NCBI GenBank assembly: GCA_001803875.1
Contig: MHEO01000039.1
Location: forward strand, 1 to 33,819
DNA length: 33,819 nucleotides
Direction: 5' to 3'
Source of the DNA: Nitrospirae bacterium RIFCSPHIGHO2_01_FULL_66_17
Lineage (GTDB): Bacteria; Nitrospirota; Nitrospiria; 2-01-FULL-66-17
The stretch's first letter is position 1; each line of letters starts with the position of its first letter. The notes under the pieces were generated by a model. That model saw only the letters and a program-made list of their open reading frames with translations, was not told the DNA's origin and did no database searches. The position numbers and the translations under genes were made by a program. Shown piece after piece: positions 19,792-33,819 of this stretch.

Positions 19792-21282
19792 TCACCCCAG
19801 ACTTCGGCGGATCTTGGCGGCATCGAGAATGTACTCCCCGAACTCCCTCCCTTCGCGCCAGAGGAGGTACGCGCTCGACACGAGGTTGCGGTGGAGGTAG
19901 TGCTCGGATCGACGAGGCCCCAGCTCTTCGCCGAAATGCACTTCAAGCAGCTTGACGTCGTCCTGAACGGTCGCCCACGCCGTGTCCTGCTTGGCCAGAA
20001 AATTGAGGTTTTCCTTGTTGAGGTACTGTCCCGCCTCGATGAGATCGGCCCGAAAATTCACGTAGATGGACTCCAGGTCGTCGAGCAGTCCCCGCTTTTT
20101 TGCCGCTCGCAACCCGCGTCCCGCCCCGATCAGCTCCGGGGGAACGCCGATCGAGTACAGCGCGGCCGTGAAGCCGATCGCGCGGGGCAACCGAACGCCC
20201 CCTTCGCCGCGCGCGTAGCCGAACAGGCCGAAGTGCAGCATCCGCTCGCGCCGCTGAGGGATGAACCGCGACAGGTCGTTGATCCGATCCGCCAGCGCCT
20301 CCACGGTGACCTTGTATTCGGCCGAGAAGAGCGCGTTGATCTGGCCGCCGCGTCTCACCTGGTCAGCGGTGTACAGCGGGGCGCGATGCTTTCCGAGCGC
20401 GCGATTGAGCACGCCGATCGCGCGCGTCACCTCGCTCAGGGGATAGTCGTACCGGAACGCCGACTGAATCGTCACGGTGCGGACCCCTGGATACTCACGG
20501 AGAAACGCATCCACCCGTCGCGGCGAGAGCCCCCCGCGGAAGGGAAGACAGCCGACACCGATGATGGGAAACACTGGAATCCCGGTTTCGTCCTCGAAGC
20601 GGTAGTACTCCGAGAGCGCAATCTTGGCCGCGATCGTGGCGGGAACGAGACCGTCGTTGAGCGAGGGGGCGGAGCGGGCCACGAACGGCCTCAAATAATC
20701 CGGCGCCGCCCCGTACTCCCGCCGGTGGAGATCCAGATACTCCATCAGGATTTTACGCGATGCGGTGAGGTGGGAGACGCCCTCGATGAGGGGGATCACC
20801 CTCAAATACGTGAACCGCTTTTCCTTGTCGCCGAACGCCTGGTGCTTGAGTGCGGCCACCTGGGAAAACGTCTTCTGAAGGTGGAGTAATTTTTTGGCAT
20901 CGTCGGTCATCGGAAGGATGACCTCGAACACCGGAGGATGCTTAAATCCCAGATCGTGCGCGAGATCTTCGAACGTCAGGATCCCGATGTACGCGCGCGC
21001 CAGGCGGTAGCCCTTTTCCTCCCAGATGTTCGGGAGCCGGAACGTGAGGAACACGTCCCCGCCCAGCGTCTTCTTCTTAAAGAAGTCGTAGTACTTGGAG
21101 AAAAGTTTGTCGACGACCGCCTCGTCGACGTATTTGCCTTCCCAGTCCCACATGTACTCCTGGCATTTGAGATCCCGAAACGCCGAGACGCACTCCTCCA
21201 CCTCCTCCTGCGCCGAAATGAAGGCGTCGCCATTCTTTTTCCACGGGGGGACGCCGGCGTGATCGGGGTGCTGGGTAGCCAT
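19792..21282 (-). CDS. ppcA: Phosphoenolpyruvate carboxylase, archaeal-type (PpcA/PEPcase_2)
   Basis: N-terminal MATQHPDHAG (archaeal-type PEPC STQHPDN motif), ~500 aa length, VFEVILPMTDDAKKLL, PLIEGVSHL, RPFVARSAPSLNDGLVPATIAAKIAL. Confidence 0.88.
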   Translation of the reverse strand: MATQHPDHAGVPPWKKNGDAFISAQEEVEECVSAFRDLKCQEYMWDWEGKYVDEAVVDKLFSKYYDFFKKKTLGGDVFLTFRLPNIWEEKGYRLARAYIGILTFEDLAHDLGFKHPPVFEVILPMTDDAKKLLHLQKTFSQVAALKHQAFGDKEKRFTYLRVIPLIEGVSHLTASRKILMEYLDLHRREYGAAPDYLRPFVARSAPSLNDGLVPATIAAKIALSEYYRFEDETGIPVFPIIGVGCLPFRGGLSPRRVDAFLREYPGVRTVTIQSAFRYDYPLSEVTRAIGVLNRALGKHRAPLYTADQVRRGGQINALFSAEYKVTVEALADRINDLSRFIPQRRERMLHFGLFGYARGEGGVRLPRAIGFTAALYSIGVPPELIGAGRGLRAAKKRGLLDDLESIYVNFRADLIEAGQYLNKENLNFLAKQDTAWATVQDDVKLLEVHFGEELGPRRSEHYLHRNLVSSAYLLWREGREFGEYILDAAKIRRSLG

Positions 21283-21469: not shown

Positions 21470-21627
21470 CTAGGAACCTGTCCATGAATGGTCATCTGCG
21501 GCGTTGCCGCTGCGCATCCGCTCCTCACGTACCCACCGCGTACGCTCCGGTGCGGTGCTCACGGCGCCTGGCATCTGACGCATTCCTGAACAGACTCCAA
21601 CGATCGAATACTCGGACAGGTTCCTAG
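21470..21627. repeat. MITE-like palindromic repeat, copy 1
   Basis: Perfect 14-bp terminal inverted repeat CTAGGAACCTGTCC...GGACAGGTTCCTAG, long imperfect inner palindrome centred on GTAC-ccaccgc-GTAC; homologous to the reverse complement of 27902-28061. Confidence 0.85.
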
Positions 21628-21869
21628 GGGTGGTCGGATCGGACGTCGCGGCTCCGAACGCTCGCGACGCGCACGCGCACCGACGGCGGCGCGGGGCTTG
21701 GCGTCAGATGCTTTCTCAGGAGATCGAGGAATTCCTTTTCGGCGAGGAAGATCTCGCGGCACGATGGACAGGCGGTTAAATGCGTCTGGGTCCGCATCGA
21801 ATCCTTCGCGTCCAGCTCCCCGTCTAGATGGGGATGCATCACCTTCCTGATCGCGGAGCAATCGTCCAT
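21624..21869 (-). CDS. Zinc-finger (zf-HC2-like) anti-sigma factor
   Basis: MDDCSAIRKVMHPHLDGELDAKDSMRTQTHLTACPSCREIFLAEKEFLDLLRKHL; H-x3-C-x2-C motif, directly downstream of an ECF sigma gene. Confidence 0.85.
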   Translation of the reverse strand: MDDCSAIRKVMHPHLDGELDAKDSMRTQTHLTACPSCREIFLAEKEFLDLLRKHLTPSPAPPSVRVRVASVRSRDVRSDHP

Positions 21870-25585: not shown

Positions 25586-27382
25586 TCAGGGAAGCGGCGC
25601 CTCCAGAGTCACGAGCAGGCCGTATGAACCCATCGTGCCGGCTCCGGCTGACGGGCCCTTGAGGGACGCGGTGACCCTGGCGTAATAGGGGCCGGGCTGG
25701 GCGTCGAACACGACCGTGGAGGCCAATCGCTCCCCGTTGTTCACTCCCATATCGCGATAGAACGCAGGCAAGGGGACGGCCCGGTTGCACACCCCGAGCT
25801 GGACCGTTTTAGGAATCGCCGCGTCATCGTTCTCCACCTTCACGGTACTCACCACCACGACTGCCCCGGTCGCATTCACTATTTGCAGAAACGTGTCGGC
25901 CCCGTTGCTCAGGTTGAACGTCTCGACCTTCACGGATCGAGGCACATCAACGGTGAACTTCACGTAATCCACATCCCCAGCCGGGTAGAGCGTGTGGCAA
26001 GTCGGAGCCAGGCCGGCGTCCGGAGCGCTCACCATCACATCGTCGGGGCGGCTCTCGTACGCATCCGGCACGAACTCGATTTTCCGCAGCGTCGCCGTGG
26101 TCGCGAAATTCGAAAAGCTCGTCGGACCGAAGAGGTCCTTGAAATAGCCCGCGAAACTTTCCAGCGTGCCCGTCGGCGGTGGCACCGTTCTGAATCGGCT
26201 CATGATCTGCCACACGCGCTGGAGACCTTCCGCGGAGACGTCCCCGCCCTCTCCGTAGCCGTCGAGCAAATCCCAGAGCACTGCCGCCACCGCGATCTCG
26301 CTGGTCGTGTAGGTACCGTAGTCCTCGAGCGGGGTCCCGATGCCGGTGAGCACGGCGGAGTAGGGCTTCTCGATATCGAACGCGTAGCTGAGGCCGCGAT
26401 TCGGACTCCCCGGATCGCCCGCGTAGGTGTTCACCATCACCGGGCTCTCGCGGATCGCAGCCGACAAGAATGTCGCCCACCCCTCGGACCACGCGAGTCG
26501 GATGTCCTGGCTGTTGTCGTTCAGATAGTGCGCGCCGCCGATTTCGGCGGGCTTTGAAAAGCTGTAGGCCATGAAGTGCCCGAACTCGTGGAGGATCACG
26601 TCGTCGTCGTACTCGTCATGATCCCCGTTGTCCGGACCTCCGCCGTCCCCCCCCGAGAGCACGATGAATGCGTCGCCAGTCTGCTCATCGCCGCCAAAAT
26701 ACGTCCCGAAGGTCCCATCCCCGAAGAATGTCCCCGGCCGCCACACGCCATACAATTGTTCGGCGGGCGCCTGCCCGGTCAATGCGACGGCTTTCTCGGC
26801 CCCGGTGGTCAGCACGTCCATGATGTTGAAGGCGCCGGAAAACGGATACGCCACCCCGCCGGAAAGCTGCACCATGAGCGGCAGCGGAAAATCCCGCTTA
26901 TTAACTCCCGGCTTGGACGCGTCGAACGGGTCGCCCGGCCGGCTGTAGAGCTCGACGTTGTCGCTGGTCACGACGATCTTGAACTTCTGGGGATCGGTCC
27001 TCGAGGCGACCCGTGGATAGACGGTGGAAAAGCTCGTCAGCGTGGGGATGTCGGTGCAGTAGGACCCGTTCTTGTCGGTAAACGTGGTCGCGACCACGCT
27101 GCCGTCGACCTCGCGGACGATCTCGACCGCACCGTAGCGAACCGGCTTGATGATCCGTTCGCCGGTCAACCCCTGCGGGCTGTATAAGCGCTTGACGAAG
27201 GTGACCTTCCCGCCGACCACCACGCCCTGCCCCCGGCAGATGAGGTCGCCGATCGGCGTGCCGCCGCCTCCGGAGCCGCACCCCATGAGGCCCGCGAGGC
27301 CGGCGATCGCCGCCGCGCGCGCCAGCCGACGCCGGCGACACGGCAGGTCACGGCTCGTCGCGATATTCGATAACCGATTCAC
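25586..27382 (-). CDS. Putative secreted/lipoprotein HExxH metallopeptidase with C-terminal PPC-like domain
   Basis: Lipobox-like LAGLMGC, DDDVILHEFGHFMAYSF and WSEGWATFLSAAIRES, C-terminal PPC-like region (GDVDYVKFTVDVPRSVKVETFNLSNGADTFLQIVNATG...GPYYARVTA). Start uncertain (GTG at 27382 assumed; ORF reaches 27436). Confidence 0.75.
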   Translation of the reverse strand: MNRLSNIATSRDLPCRRRRLARAAAIAGLAGLMGCGSGGGGTPIGDLICRGQGVVVGGKVTFVKRLYSPQGLTGERIIKPVRYGAVEIVREVDGSVVATTFTDKNGSYCTDIPTLTSFSTVYPRVASRTDPQKFKIVVTSDNVELYSRPGDPFDASKPGVNKRDFPLPLMVQLSGGVAYPFSGAFNIMDVLTTGAEKAVALTGQAPAEQLYGVWRPGTFFGDGTFGTYFGGDEQTGDAFIVLSGGDGGGPDNGDHDEYDDDVILHEFGHFMAYSFSKPAEIGGAHYLNDNSQDIRLAWSEGWATFLSAAIRESPVMVNTYAGDPGSPNRGLSYAFDIEKPYSAVLTGIGTPLEDYGTYTTSEIAVAAVLWDLLDGYGEGGDVSAEGLQRVWQIMSRFRTVPPPTGTLESFAGYFKDLFGPTSFSNFATTATLRKIEFVPDAYESRPDDVMVSAPDAGLAPTCHTLYPAGDVDYVKFTVDVPRSVKVETFNLSNGADTFLQIVNATGAVVVVSTVKVENDDAAIPKTVQLGVCNRAVPLPAFYRDMGVNNGERLASTVVFDAQPGPYYARVTASLKGPSAGAGTMGSYGLLVTLEAPLP

Positions 27383-27851
27383 CCGTCTTGGTTTTCTTGG
27401 GGGGGGGAAGGTTGAGTTTGTGCTTGGACGGGTCACCCAGCGGGAGCATGAGCGACCGGGCGTCGCCGAGCGTGGTCCCGTCGGCGAATTTCAGCATCGC
27501 GGCGCCCTGGATGACCGCCGGCGCGGCCTTCCGCGGCCGGATCGTCACCATCAATGTTCGAACATCGCCCGCCCGCGCCGCCCCCTCCCAGGTCGTCGTC
27601 CCCGACACGAGATCCACGCCGTCCGGGAGAGTGATCGACAGCGACAGGCTCGGCGCGTCCACCAGGGGCCTCGCGCGGAGGGTCACGGTCACGTCCGCGT
27701 CCACCGCGACCGGCCCGCCGAAATCGAGCGACACGTCGAGTGGGGCGGCCGGCATCGTCGCCAAGCCGGGTCGGGGACACGAGAGAAACACAAGAACCAG
27801 CGCCGCCATCAAGGGCGCGCGGCTCCGCCCAAAGACCACGTTCATATTCAT
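27348..27851 (-). CDS. Hypothetical secreted protein
   Basis: Signal peptide (RAPLMAALVLVFLSCPRPGLA), beta-rich LPDGVDLVSGTTTWEG...; overlaps the metallopeptidase gene start. Confidence 0.65.
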   Translation of the reverse strand: MNMNVVFGRSRAPLMAALVLVFLSCPRPGLATMPAAPLDVSLDFGGPVAVDADVTVTLRARPLVDAPSLSLSITLPDGVDLVSGTTTWEGAARAGDVRTLMVTIRPRKAAPAVIQGAAMLKFADGTTLGDARSLMLPLGDPSKHKLNLPPPKKTKTGESVIEYRDEP

Positions 27852-27901: not shown

Positions 27902-28061
27902 CTAGGAACCGGTCTGAACATTCGGCAGTTGGAGCCTGTTCAGGAATGCGCCAGATGCAAGGCGCCGGCGAGCACCCGGACCGGAGCGTACTGTTCCGTA
28001 CGTGAGGACCGGATGCGCAGCCGGCAACGCAGCAGATGGCCATTCATGGACAGGCTTCTAA
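27902..28061. repeat. MITE-like palindromic repeat, copy 2 (inverted relative to copy 1)
   Basis: CTAGGAACCGGTCTGAACATTCGG...GTAC-tgttcc-GTAC...CATTCATGGACAGGCTTCTA; reverse complement aligns along the length of 21470-21627, roughly 80% by hand alignment. Confidence 0.85.
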
Positions 28062-29035
28062 TCGGCCAGCCGCCAGTAGCGTAAGGTGGGCTCCCCGCGG
28101 GAGCGGTCCACGACCGCCAGAACGCCCTTTTTCACGCCGTTGGCCTCGCCTTCCGCGTAGACCGAGAACCACGAGCTGGCCACGGTAATTCGCGGCAGCA
28201 GTTGGCTGACCACGGCCGAGGTCATGCCGGGGACCTTGATCAGATCGCCCTTGGCGGCGAACGGCCGGGCATCGACGATCGTCTCCACCTGCTTGTCGTC
28301 GAGCGGGAACGCGACAGCGCCATCCTGGCCAGGCACCGGCAGTGTCTGCAGCACCACCGGGTCGGCGGTGTTGACGTTGATACTCTCGTCGGATGTGTAG
28401 ACCGTCAAGTACGGGCTGATCGTGCGGTACACCTCGTCGGAGATGCCTTTGACGAGGTGCAACTCGGCCAGGGTGTCCATCCGGCCGTTGCGGCAGCGGT
28501 ACGGCCGATCCAGGCGCTCGTAGTACGCCGACTCCGCGCCGGAGGGCTCCTCGATCTCGTCCCGATCCAGCCAATCCACGATCGCGTCGACCGGCGCGGG
28601 GTCGAGCCCCTTGAGCCGGAACAGGCGTTTGAGCTGCTCGATCTGAAGCGGAACCGAGGGTTTCGTCCCGCTCGGGGTCACCAGCATGTTGACGTTGATC
28701 TTCCCCCCCTCGTCCTGGATCCACGCCGCGACCGTCCCGTCCCCCAGGGGGTAGGGCGGGAGCGGCGTCGCCCAGAGTTCGGTCAAGTCGTCGCGGCCGC
28801 CGTGCCGGACCAGATCGTCCTTCAGGAGCGCCTGCGCGGCGGCGATGCCCGACGTCGCGAGGTGAAACGCCTTCATCCCGTCCCGGAAGTTGCCCGCGGC
28901 CTTCACCATCGTCCGGGTGGATCGGTCGAATTCGAGCACCGCCGTGACGAGCAGCACGAGGACGAGCAACGTGAGCACGAGGGCCATCCCGCGTTCGCCC
29001 GGCCGAGCGGCCCGCCGGTCAGGACGGCTTGTCAT
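28058..29035 (-). CDS. gspK: General secretion pathway protein K (minor pseudopilin)
   Basis: GERGMALVLTLLVLVLLVTAVLEFDRSTRTM, IQDEGGKINVNMLV, VDAIVDWLDRDEIEEPSGAE, SINVNTADPVVLQTLP. Confidence 0.92.
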   Translation of the reverse strand: MTSRPDRRAARPGERGMALVLTLLVLVLLVTAVLEFDRSTRTMVKAAGNFRDGMKAFHLATSGIAAAQALLKDDLVRHGGRDDLTELWATPLPPYPLGDGTVAAWIQDEGGKINVNMLVTPSGTKPSVPLQIEQLKRLFRLKGLDPAPVDAIVDWLDRDEIEEPSGAESAYYERLDRPYRCRNGRMDTLAELHLVKGISDEVYRTISPYLTVYTSDESINVNTADPVVLQTLPVPGQDGAVAFPLDDKQVETIVDARPFAAKGDLIKVPGMTSAVVSQLLPRITVASSWFSVYAEGEANGVKKGVLAVVDRSRGEPTLRYWRLAD

Positions 29036-29570: not shown

Positions 29571-31093
29571 ACACCTTCTCTCAGCGTGATGGTCATCAGG
29601 AACCGGACCTTGGACTGGTCGGCGGTCGTCTTGGCGTCACTCACCACGATACGGCCGACAAAGGGCGCCTTCGAGAGCGCGCCCTCGATGCGGTTCACCC
29701 AGTCGAACGACGCGGTCTCCGCCTCGATCCGGACCTTGTCCTGATCGATGGTCAGATCGGACACCGCGATGCCGCTGTCCTTGGGGATCGCGTCGGTCAG
29801 CTTCAACAGGATGTCGAGCGCGCCAACCTCGCCGCCGAGAAACGCCCGCTGTTTGGCGAGCGTGTCGATCGCAGCCTGGAGCTGATCGGGTTCGCTCACG
29901 ATCGTCGTCACTCCGGGGAGCGCGTCCTGAAAGGCCGCGCGCACCCGGTCCTGCACCTCGCGGTACCGGCGCTCCTTCCCGGCGGCTCGCACCCCCAGGT
30001 CGGCGACGCCCGCCGCGAGCACGAGCGCCGCCATGACGCCCGCGATCATCGCGCGCTTGCGCACCCCCGCCCGCTCCCGACCGTACGCGAACTCCCCCCG
30101 GCGGAAGTCGATGCGGCCGCGGTCGCGGGCCAGCCCCGCGAGCGCCAGACCGGCCGCGAGGGCGACCGGCGCGAGCGGCCGCGGCGCACCGCCGATCGGC
30201 ACCGACGGCCACGCGACGAGCTCCAGCCCCAGCGCGTCGGCGAGGAACGCGCCGACCTCCGGAAGATCCGACCAGAGGCCGCTCAGCGCCATCGCCCCGA
30301 CGCGCCGGCCCGAGTCGACCGCGTCGGCGTGCAGGGTGCGCCGCAACTCGTCGACCGCGGTCCGGAGCGCGGGAACCAGGGCGTCCGCCGCGCGAGCGGC
30401 CGAGGCCCGGTCGGCGTCGTCTCTCGCGTGACGGTAGATGGTTGCCTCCCGGAGCGCCTCGGCTTCGATCCCCGACTCGGCCGCCGCGCGCCTCGCCGCC
30501 TCGCCGTCCCAAGGCACGCCCCGCATCGCCCGCAGGCGCCGGCCGTCGAGCAGCGCCACCGAGATCCACCGATCGTCCAGGTGGATCAGCGCCAGGTCGG
30601 GACGGAGCGGCAGCCAGACCTCGGCGGCATGCGCGAGGGCCTCGGCGTCCACGGTCACCACGCGGGGATCGAGCCCCGCGCGAGCCGCCTCCTCCAGCCG
30701 GGCCCGCAAAGTCGTTTTCGGAACGGCCGCCGCCAGGAGGCGCGAGCGCCCCTCCGCCTGAGACACGAGCGACGCCGCGACCACGACCTCGTCGAGCTCG
30801 AACGGCAACTGCCCCTCGAGCTCGGACGGGAGGACGGCGTCGAGCTTCTCCCGCTGGGTGAACGGCAGGGTGACCGCCCGCGCGGATACGGCGTGAACCG
30901 GCACGCCGAGCGCGACCGGTTGCGCCCCCGGCGCCGCTTCCCGCGCGAGCGCCCGCAGCGTCTCGACCGGGCCCTCGGCGCCCTCGGGCACCCGCCGCGT
31001 GACGGCGCGCTCGATCCGAACGCCCTTGAGCCCCCGATTCACCACCGCGAGCGTAAGCGCCCGCGCGCCGATATCGAATCCCGCCCCGCGCAT
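29567..31093 (-). CDS. gspL: General secretion pathway protein L (PilM/PilN-like)
   Basis: Actin-like N-domain (GFDIGARALTLAVVNRGLKGVRI), central TM, PilN-like C-domain (LDILLKLTDAIPKDSGIAVSDLTIDQDKVRIEAETASFDWVNRIEGAL). Confidence 0.85.
   Translation of the reverse strand: MRGAGFDIGARALTLAVVNRGLKGVRIERAVTRRVPEGAEGPVETLRALAREAAPGAQPVALGVPVHAVSARAVTLPFTQREKLDAVLPSELEGQLPFELDEVVVAASLVSQAEGRSRLLAAAVPKTTLRARLEEAARAGLDPRVVTVDAEALAHAAEVWLPLRPDLALIHLDDRWISVALLDGRRLRAMRGVPWDGEAARRAAAESGIEAEALREATIYRHARDDADRASAARAADALVPALRTAVDELRRTLHADAVDSGRRVGAMALSGLWSDLPEVGAFLADALGLELVAWPSVPIGGAPRPLAPVALAAGLALAGLARDRGRIDFRRGEFAYGRERAGVRKRAMIAGVMAALVLAAGVADLGVRAAGKERRYREVQDRVRAAFQDALPGVTTIVSEPDQLQAAIDTLAKQRAFLGGEVGALDILLKLTDAIPKDSGIAVSDLTIDQDKVRIEAETASFDWVNRIEGALSKAPFVGRIVVSDAKTTADQSKVRFLMTITLREGV
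30422..30451. repeat. 30-nt motif, copy A (inside gspL)
   Basis: TCTCGCGTGACGGTAGATGGTTGCCTCCCG, 28/30 identical to copy B. Confidence 0.75.
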
Positions 31094-32040: not shown

Positions 32041-32772
32041 TCACCGCGTCCCGGCGAGGGGCAGGGCCACCACCGTCCGGACGCGCTCGGCGGGCGCGCG
32101 GCCGACGCCCGCCAGCCCGACCGTCACCTCGACCGCTCTCGGCAGGCCCTGGCGCGGTTTCGCCTCCCACGCGTCCACCCAGTCGGCGCCTGCGAGGTAT
32201 CGGAGCTTGAACTCCGTTACGCCCTCGGCCATGTCGTCGGTCTGAACGGCCCACGGCGCGTCACTGAGGACGTTGGATCGTTCCTCCCGCACCAGCCGTC
32301 CGGTCGCGCCGTCGGGGTCGGCCTCGACCCGATACTCGATCTGCGACACGTCGGACTCGGGGCGGTCGGCCACGTACCGCCGGTGGGCGAACGTCGTCCA
32401 GACCAGGCGGTCCCGGCGCGTATCCGCCCCGGCGGCCGTGTCGCTCGATCCCTCGAACCGTCCACGCCCGCCGTTGTCGGCAAACCAGTACGCGGCCGAC
32501 AGCTCGTCCACCAGGCGCTCCGTGATGACCTGCACCTGGCGCATCCGCTCGCTGGCCTCCGCGGTGTCGCGCGTCACGTCCACGCTGCGCGCAAACGCGC
32601 CGTACACGAGGGTCATCACGATCGCTAACAGCCCGATCGCCACCACCACTTCGATCAGAGTAAATCCGCGCTGCGCCAAAGGCGCGGCATGAAAATCGCC
32701 CCTTCCTCTCGGATCGCGAAGCAAGCCGCCGCGCGGCTCTAGCGTGACGGTAGATAGTTGCCTCCCGCTCAC
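32041..32772 (-). CDS. gspJ: General secretion pathway protein J (pseudopilin)
   Basis: Prepilin motif RG^FTLIEVVVAIGLLAIVMTLVYGAFARSVD; RLVDELSAAYWF; GTG start overlapping the gspI stop. Confidence 0.85.
   Translation of the reverse strand: MSGRQLSTVTLEPRGGLLRDPRGRGDFHAAPLAQRGFTLIEVVVAIGLLAIVMTLVYGAFARSVDVTRDTAEASERMRQVQVITERLVDELSAAYWFADNGGRGRFEGSSDTAAGADTRRDRLVWTTFAHRRYVADRPESDVSQIEYRVEADPDGATGRLVREERSNVLSDAPWAVQTDDMAEGVTEFKLRYLAGADWVDAWEAKPRQGLPRAVEVTVGLAGVGRAPAERVRTVVALPLAGTR
32657..32728. repeat. Pseudopilin leader repeat block, gspJ copy
   Basis: 72 nt, 64/72 identical by hand count to 33136-33207, including most third codon positions. Confidence 0.8.
32738..32767. repeat. 30-nt motif, copy B (5' end of gspJ)
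   Basis: TCTAGCGTGACGGTAGATAGTTGCCTCCCG. Confidence 0.75.
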
Positions 32773-33245: not shown

Positions 33246-33819
33246 GAGGCGGTCGTGTCTAGCGTGACGGTAGATCGTGGCCTCCCGTCGACGTAGCCCG
33301 CGACCACCGTCACCCGGCCGGTGATTGGGTTGATCGTGAGGGTGTAGCGCGACGGCCGCTTATTGATGCCGTTCAACCGATCGCCCTCCTCGAGGTGAAT
33401 CGCCGTCCGCGTGACGCCGCCCGACGGGAAGAACTGGGTGAACGCCGTGCCATCCGTCACCAGACCATGATGCGGGGTGGCCACGTCCTCGAAGCGGACC
33501 TCCGCGGGCAGCGCCCGTTTGGGCCCGACCGGCGGCCCCTCTTCGAGGACGCCGCCACGCGACACCAGCGTCGTCACCCAGAACTCGTCGGTGTCCAGAT
33601 CATAATACAGCCGCTGGATCGTGCGGGTCGCGATCGCCTCCTGAACGAGGGCGGCGGCCAGCCCCGCGAGGTCGCGCGACGCCGATCGCGCGTCGCCCCC
33701 GACGACACGCTGCAGGCGCGGCGCGACCAGCATGGCGACCAGGGCGAGGATGAACACCACGATCGTGATCTCGATCAGGGTAAATCCGCACTGCGCCAAC
33801 GGCGCAGACTGCAATCGTC
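33242..33819 (-). CDS. gspH: General secretion pathway protein H-like pseudopilin (5' end probably beyond window)
   Basis: Prepilin motif CG^FTLIEITIVVFILALVAMLVAPRLQ; stop overlaps the gspI ATG. Confidence 0.82.
   Translation of the reverse strand, partial: RLQSAPLAQCGFTLIEITIVVFILALVAMLVAPRLQRVVGGDARSASRDLAGLAAALVQEAIATRTIQRLYYDLDTDEFWVTTLVSRGGVLEEGPPVGPKRALPAEVRFEDVATPHHGLVTDGTAFTQFFPSGGVTRTAIHLEEGDRLNGINKRPSRYTLTINPITGRVTVVAGYVDGRPRSTVTLDTTAS
33258..33287. repeat. 30-nt motif, copy C (3' end of gspH)
   Basis: TCTAGCGTGACGGTAGATCGTGGCCTCCCG, 28/30 identical to copy B. Confidence 0.75.

Follow-up and report, generated by a model that had tools for sequence, protein, structure and literature searches.

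The window, the whole stretch of 33,819 nucleotides that was analysed, contains two copies of a palindromic element. Each copy is located between the end of a minus-strand gene and the next co-directional reading frame, as the initial annotation had proposed. The coordinates are given in Table 1. The two copies are mutually inverted and share 84–85% identity, and their predicted RNA folds have z scores of -5.2 (copy 1) and -4.6 (copy 2).

Table 1. Element copies in the window and the genes around them.
Feature	Position	Strand	Basis and remarks
Element copy 1, long form, 157 nt	21471..21627	- (family-consensus strand)	repeat alignment, profile match, RNA fold
Element copy 2, long form, 159 nt	27902..28060	+ (family-consensus strand)	repeat alignment, profile match, RNA fold, empty site in G001
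Short zf-HC2 anti-sigma-type gene, 81 aa (81 codons)	21624..21869	-	Pfam PF13490
gspK (T2SS protein K)	28058..29035	-	Pfam T2SSK
PEPcase_2 (phosphoenolpyruvate carboxylase), next co-directional gene past copy 1	19792..21282	-	start ~189 nt beyond element
Co-directional reading frame next past copy 2	27348..27851	-	no Pfam match; ~50–57 nt beyond element, depending on the start

Both neighbouring genes end on the element itself. The anti-sigma gene ends CAC CCC TAG, with its stop codon at 21624-21626 on the left terminus of copy 1, and gspK ends GCC GAT TAG, with its stop at 28058-28060 on the right terminus of copy 2. The initial annotation had noted that the TAG stop is located at the element terminus in both copies and that opposite ends face the gene, and both observations are borne out, these being the left consensus end for copy 1 and the right consensus end for copy 2. 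Its span for the second copy, 27902-28061, is correct except at the right end, which is placed one base too far, position 28061 being outside the element. The dinucleotide TA is apparently duplicated at 21471-21472 and 21625-21626 in copy 1, where the reconstructed empty site is C(21470)-TA-G(21627), and at 27903-27904 and 28059-28060 in copy 2, where the sequence in the sense of gspK is GAT TAG.

A profile was built from the two window copies and then refined. It identified a family of palindromic repeats of about 156 nt, with at least 75 matches in the 690 kb examined of the genome to which the window belongs (G000), 55 matches in 1.1 Mb of a genome of the same genus (G001), and many copies too in G002, which comes from the same family. 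The G000 assembly is 1.41 Mb and is estimated to be 65% complete. About half of it was examined, on contigs picked largely because they hold copies; the copy density is therefore biased upward, and the position statistics below are given per copy. The family is extragenic, with no copy inside any called gene. Annotated plasmid and phage collections gave no match, and a pattern search of viral contigs gave none either. Neither window copy matched an Rfam covariance model at the gathering threshold or at E ≤ 5, and identification as a known Rfam RNA was rejected.

The 156-nt consensus contains a hairpin core of about 125 nt, GGAGCCTGTTCAGGAA...TTCATGGACAGGCTCC. In this genus the core is often extended: in long copies it is preceded by a tail of about 29 nt, which starts CTAGGAGTGTGTCC and repeats the terminal TAGGAG..TGTCC, giving terminal inverted repeats at each end. 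Read from the outside, both ends of long copies begin (C)TAGGAG. A second short repeat of about 31 nt, CGGGAAGCAGCATTCGTCCGTCACGCTAGAG and its variants, occurs in the window at 30421-30451, 32737-32767 and about 33257-33287. It lies within genes and, at 32737, 2 nt past a stop. It is also found at the same places inside copies of the element (for example L042:7344, L076:9804, L076:9886 and L080:2163), as if it were a smaller mobile unit inserting into the hairpin.

The offset between element ends and stop codons was tabulated for the copies in both genomes. Genes were called using our own simple gene finder trained on G000, which missed the short anti-sigma gene in the window; this was added by hand. 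In the 690 kb of G000, 72 copies have an intact right end. The stop codon is located exactly at the terminus in 42 of these (at the right end in 32 and the left end in 10), and no more than 15 nt away in 58, compared with a chance expectation of 10.3% of the permissible non-coding bases. For G001, the 609 kb examined first gave 15/17 long copies and 11/12 short copies with a stop at the terminus or within 15 nt. Chance placement of copies at stops is thus excluded, and the genome-wide data support the suggestion that stop codons are where the element inserts. Several copies that consist only of the hairpin directly follow TGA or TAA stops, so the association with stops is wider than the terminal TAG.

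The genes that abut an element in the window genome were all compared with 1.1 Mb of G001. The gspK gene of G001 has no element and ends RYWRLAD-TAG (GAC TAG), with the next start about 49 nt further on, and a frame similar to that at 27348..27851 is also present downstream of it. The gspK of G002, also without an element, ends RYWRLAD-TGA. A gspK scan of the genome_contigs collection matched no relative. The order of gspK and the anti-sigma gene is shared with G001, and on this ground an integron attC site, considered since it too abuts stop codons, was dropped as a candidate. In total, 23 copies with a stop exactly at the terminus have an element-free relative of the abutting gene. Eleven of these relatives end at the same residue, their stops being TAA (5), TGA (4) and TAG (2). 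Eight more end within nine residues, including the relative of the anti-sigma gene (81 aa with the element; 86 aa without it, ending in TAA). Of the remaining four, one relative extends 19 residues further, another has a tail that is divergent though similar in length, and two could be aligned only in part. Given that C-termini in element-free relatives are the same or close, the element mostly occupies stops that existed beforehand, and in the majority of comparable cases does not truncate the protein. The proposal that it creates stop codons is contradicted by the G001 gspK, which has the same C-terminus and the same TAG, and the wider alignment of C-termini indicates that stop creation is not general.

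Of the stop codon, the element contributes no more than the third base: its first base, G, turns a TAA or TAG into TAG. Five cases are consistent with conversion of TAA to TAG in this way. The relatives ending in TGA show that between genomes at this distance stops also change unaided, so single cases of TAA to TAG carry little weight.

We think it probable that the two elements in the window represent a REP/MITE-like palindrome that is mobile but non-autonomous, its movement depending on an enzyme encoded elsewhere. Such an enzyme would move the palindrome into TA sites, with a preference for CTAG and with duplication of the TA. The ends read TA-GGAG from the outside, and insertion into a TAA or TAG stop would leave a TAG stop. 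Outside stops there is little TA, and copies that enter coding or upstream sequence presumably do not persist; stop codons would thereby collect the surviving copies. A leftover bias in orientation, and perhaps in site, could reflect strand-specific insertion or selection on the hairpin in the mRNA.

The search for the enzyme covered the DDE_Tnp_1 and Y1 transposase families. No DDE_Tnp_1 (PF01609) gene was found in G000 or G001, both of which are incomplete, and this family was rejected as the mobiliser. Genes for Y1 transposases are present, with three in G000, one in G001 and eight in G002. No Y1 gene was flanked by the element among all four of G000 and G001 and four of the eight of G002, G000 being incomplete, and a Y1/RAYT gene bounded by the element was therefore rejected for the loci examined. 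A match to GTACGTGAGG near one Y1 gene of G002 falls within an open reading frame and was rejected as a flanking copy. The Y1_Tnp (RAYT-like) genes are at L171, L172, L174 and L176 and at the G002 loci, and several have an additional C-terminal region. Among orphan ends in 1.3 Mb of these incomplete genomes, there was no autonomous relative having the same ends together with a transposase.

The element is strongly polar. When the two strands of each copy were folded as RNA, the consensus strand gave the more stable structure in 74 of 75 copies, the difference averaging about 11 kcal/mol. The outer stem of the consensus strand has 145 G-U cells versus 13 A-C cells, of which 68 of the G-U cells represent one fixed pair, and since the copies share descent the cells are not independent. 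Orientation is biased as well. The right end is favoured by 36:11 (p 3e-4) in long copies with an exact stop and by 27:3 (p 8e-6) in short copies near a stop. Copies in this favoured orientation have their more stable strand antisense to the abutting gene, which argues against a simple 3'UTR hairpin selected in that mRNA. The antisense placement fits a mechanism that reads one strand, as RNA or single-stranded DNA, or the elimination of copies whose strong hairpin would end up in the mRNA.

One such mechanism would be that movement is bound to one strand of the hairpin, either as RNA or as single-stranded DNA through a RAYT-type Y1/HUH transposase, with insertion preferring sequence at or just after stops. 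This is a mechanism within our preferred explanation and not fully separate from it. It is suggested by the polarity (also seen in 17 of 18 related hairpins at other loci), by the orientation bias and by the presence of Y1 genes, and weakened by the lack of a Y1 gene flanked by the element and by the dependence among the G-U cells. We regard it as possible, though not probable. The foot of the element, TAGGAGC, resembles the heads of published REPs, for example GTAGGAGC (PMC2817692), and a RAYT-type route would therefore be worth testing.

The composition of the target provides another alternative. The genome has about 66% G+C, and CTAG is depleted about tenfold, with 202 observed versus 2067 expected in the 690 kb of G000. 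Reconstructed empty sites of the copies bounded by TA are mostly CTAG or CTAC, which would fit a (C)TA(R) target with duplication of the TA. The TA at both ends and the empty site at gspK agree with such a duplication; the TA could also be the element's own, and the divergence of G001 blurs most of the empty-site comparisons. Stops account for 15% of non-coding TA sites in G000 and 11% in G001, and contain 29/42 and 13/16 of the TA-bounded copies, respectively.

It could thus be that the element inserts at CTAG or TA anywhere, and that the scarcity of sites and the loss of harmful insertions are solely responsible for the pattern, with no preference for stops. The depletion of CTAG is in line with this, as is the fact that many of the filled gaps hold no TA except that of the stop. 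When the comparison is with CTAG in 3' regions distant from starts, stops show a modest excess, with odds ratios of 3.6 (p 0.046) in G000 and 3.7 (p 0.11) in G001. Relative to all other non-coding CTAG the excess is strong (odds ratio about 11, p 4e-5 and 9e-4). Several of these tests use the same copies, and the p-values are therefore descriptive. A pure target effect also leaves the orientation bias unexplained, and the copies abutting TGA stops conflict with a pure TA target. Target scarcity and loss of harmful insertions thus explain much of the pattern, perhaps not all of it, and a residual preference for stops is suggestive. As a complete account, we consider the pure target effect rather improbable.

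A further alternative is that a function for the host holds the copies at stops, and that copies elsewhere are lost as useless. As proposed for the REPs of E. coli, such a function could be protection of mRNA ends, slowing or stalling of terminating ribosomes, or assistance in ending transcription. In E. coli, 260 of 496 REPs have been proposed to act in translation, being no more than 15 nt from a stop, and REPs at this distance are reported to stall ribosomes (PMC12306157). The precise position of the element at TGA and TAA stops as well as TAG would be expected of a host function, and convergent gene ends are over-represented among the sites of the element (21/60 versus 81/515). One pair of copies at orthologous genes shares 97% identity, each being the best match of the other. 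Other orthologous gene ends have copies with different inner modules; L070:8230 versus L217:8109 and L069:11293 versus L208:5727 share their gene ends and differ in inner or outer modules, suggesting exchange of modules between copies or repeated insertion at one place. Paired double changes that preserve pairing were found in 14 of 34 predicted pairs. These can come from structural selection, but also from strand-specific recognition or from template switching, which within palindromes can yield paired changes. The favoured orientation, moreover, puts the less stable strand in the mRNA, and many orthologs manage without the element. The initial annotation had put forward a structured 3'UTR, a terminator or an insulator as possible roles. 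The hairpin is a strong one, but a simple scan found no intrinsic terminator (hairpin plus T-run) at either window copy, and this role was rejected. Overall, a host function seems to us unlikely.

Related hairpins occur in other genomes of the class, at one or two per genome, and mostly lie soon after the stop of a long open frame; the sample is small, and the long open frames at these loci are candidate genes. At loci L097-L110 in such genomes there are hairpin families with different outer stems, for example CAGGCTGCTGAAAAAGTCC, close after stops and with unchanged strand polarity. There could therefore be a class-wide family of polar hairpins whose placement is tied to translation stops as such and not just to TAG. 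One strand would act as a hairpin of RNA or of single-stranded DNA, and copies would come to lie immediately after TAA, TAG or TGA with the stable strand antisense. We consider this broader proposal quite doubtful.

Finally, the proposal that the element makes new stops by inserting into coding sequence and truncating genes is very improbable indeed, and was rejected as a general rule by the comparisons of filled and empty genes, in which gspK and ten other genes keep their end residue without the element and eight more end within nine residues of it; the gene at L073:1, which has the relative 19 residues longer, may be one that its element has shortened.

A mobile palindrome that lands on stops, as we propose, can multiply in a gene-dense genome at little cost. 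In doing so it sets a strong hairpin right where translation ends in many genes. The related genomes represent natural pairs of filled and empty genes, in which one could follow how a hairpin next to the stop affects termination, the decay of mRNA and the expression of operons, and the strand polarity and orientation bias provide a concrete handle on how the element moves.

It is useful to compare the element with known systems. A search of open-licence papers for the words of the core sequence, or for insertion sequences that target stop codons, found nothing relevant. The closest resemblance is to REP and BIME sequences, which are likewise dispersed, extragenic, high-copy palindromes, often near stops, and are brought to mind also by the Y1 genes in these genomes and by the foot noted above. 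REPs are 20–40 nt long, whereas the element is 125–156 nt (core about 125, long form about 156). The REP head is GTAG (or GTGG), whereas the base that precedes the TAGGAGC foot is usually C and sometimes G. Because of its length, because its own terminus forms the stop codon, and because no rayt gene flanked by it was found in the loci examined, the element is not filed here as a REP, though it is REP-like in several respects. The TIR repeats of TIRYT genes (PMC3733652) are similar in being a repeat family alongside Y1 transposases that is unrelated to the GTAG REPs, and some of these TIRs are self-complementary; TIRYT genes differ in being bounded by their repeats, as no Y1 gene is here. With MITEs that use TA or CTAG-type targets and an IS transposase acting in trans, the element shares terminal inverted repeats, an apparent TA duplication, no evident coding capacity and many copies; it differs in that no autonomous partner was found and DDE_Tnp_1 is absent from G000 and G001. 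MIRUs are short mobile repeats described as inserting at start codons with a coupled short ORF (PMC12548453). Like the element, they insert at translation signals and disturb the host gene little; unlike them, the element is a hairpin and occupies stop codons. REPs near stops and MIRUs at translation signals are precedents for the element.
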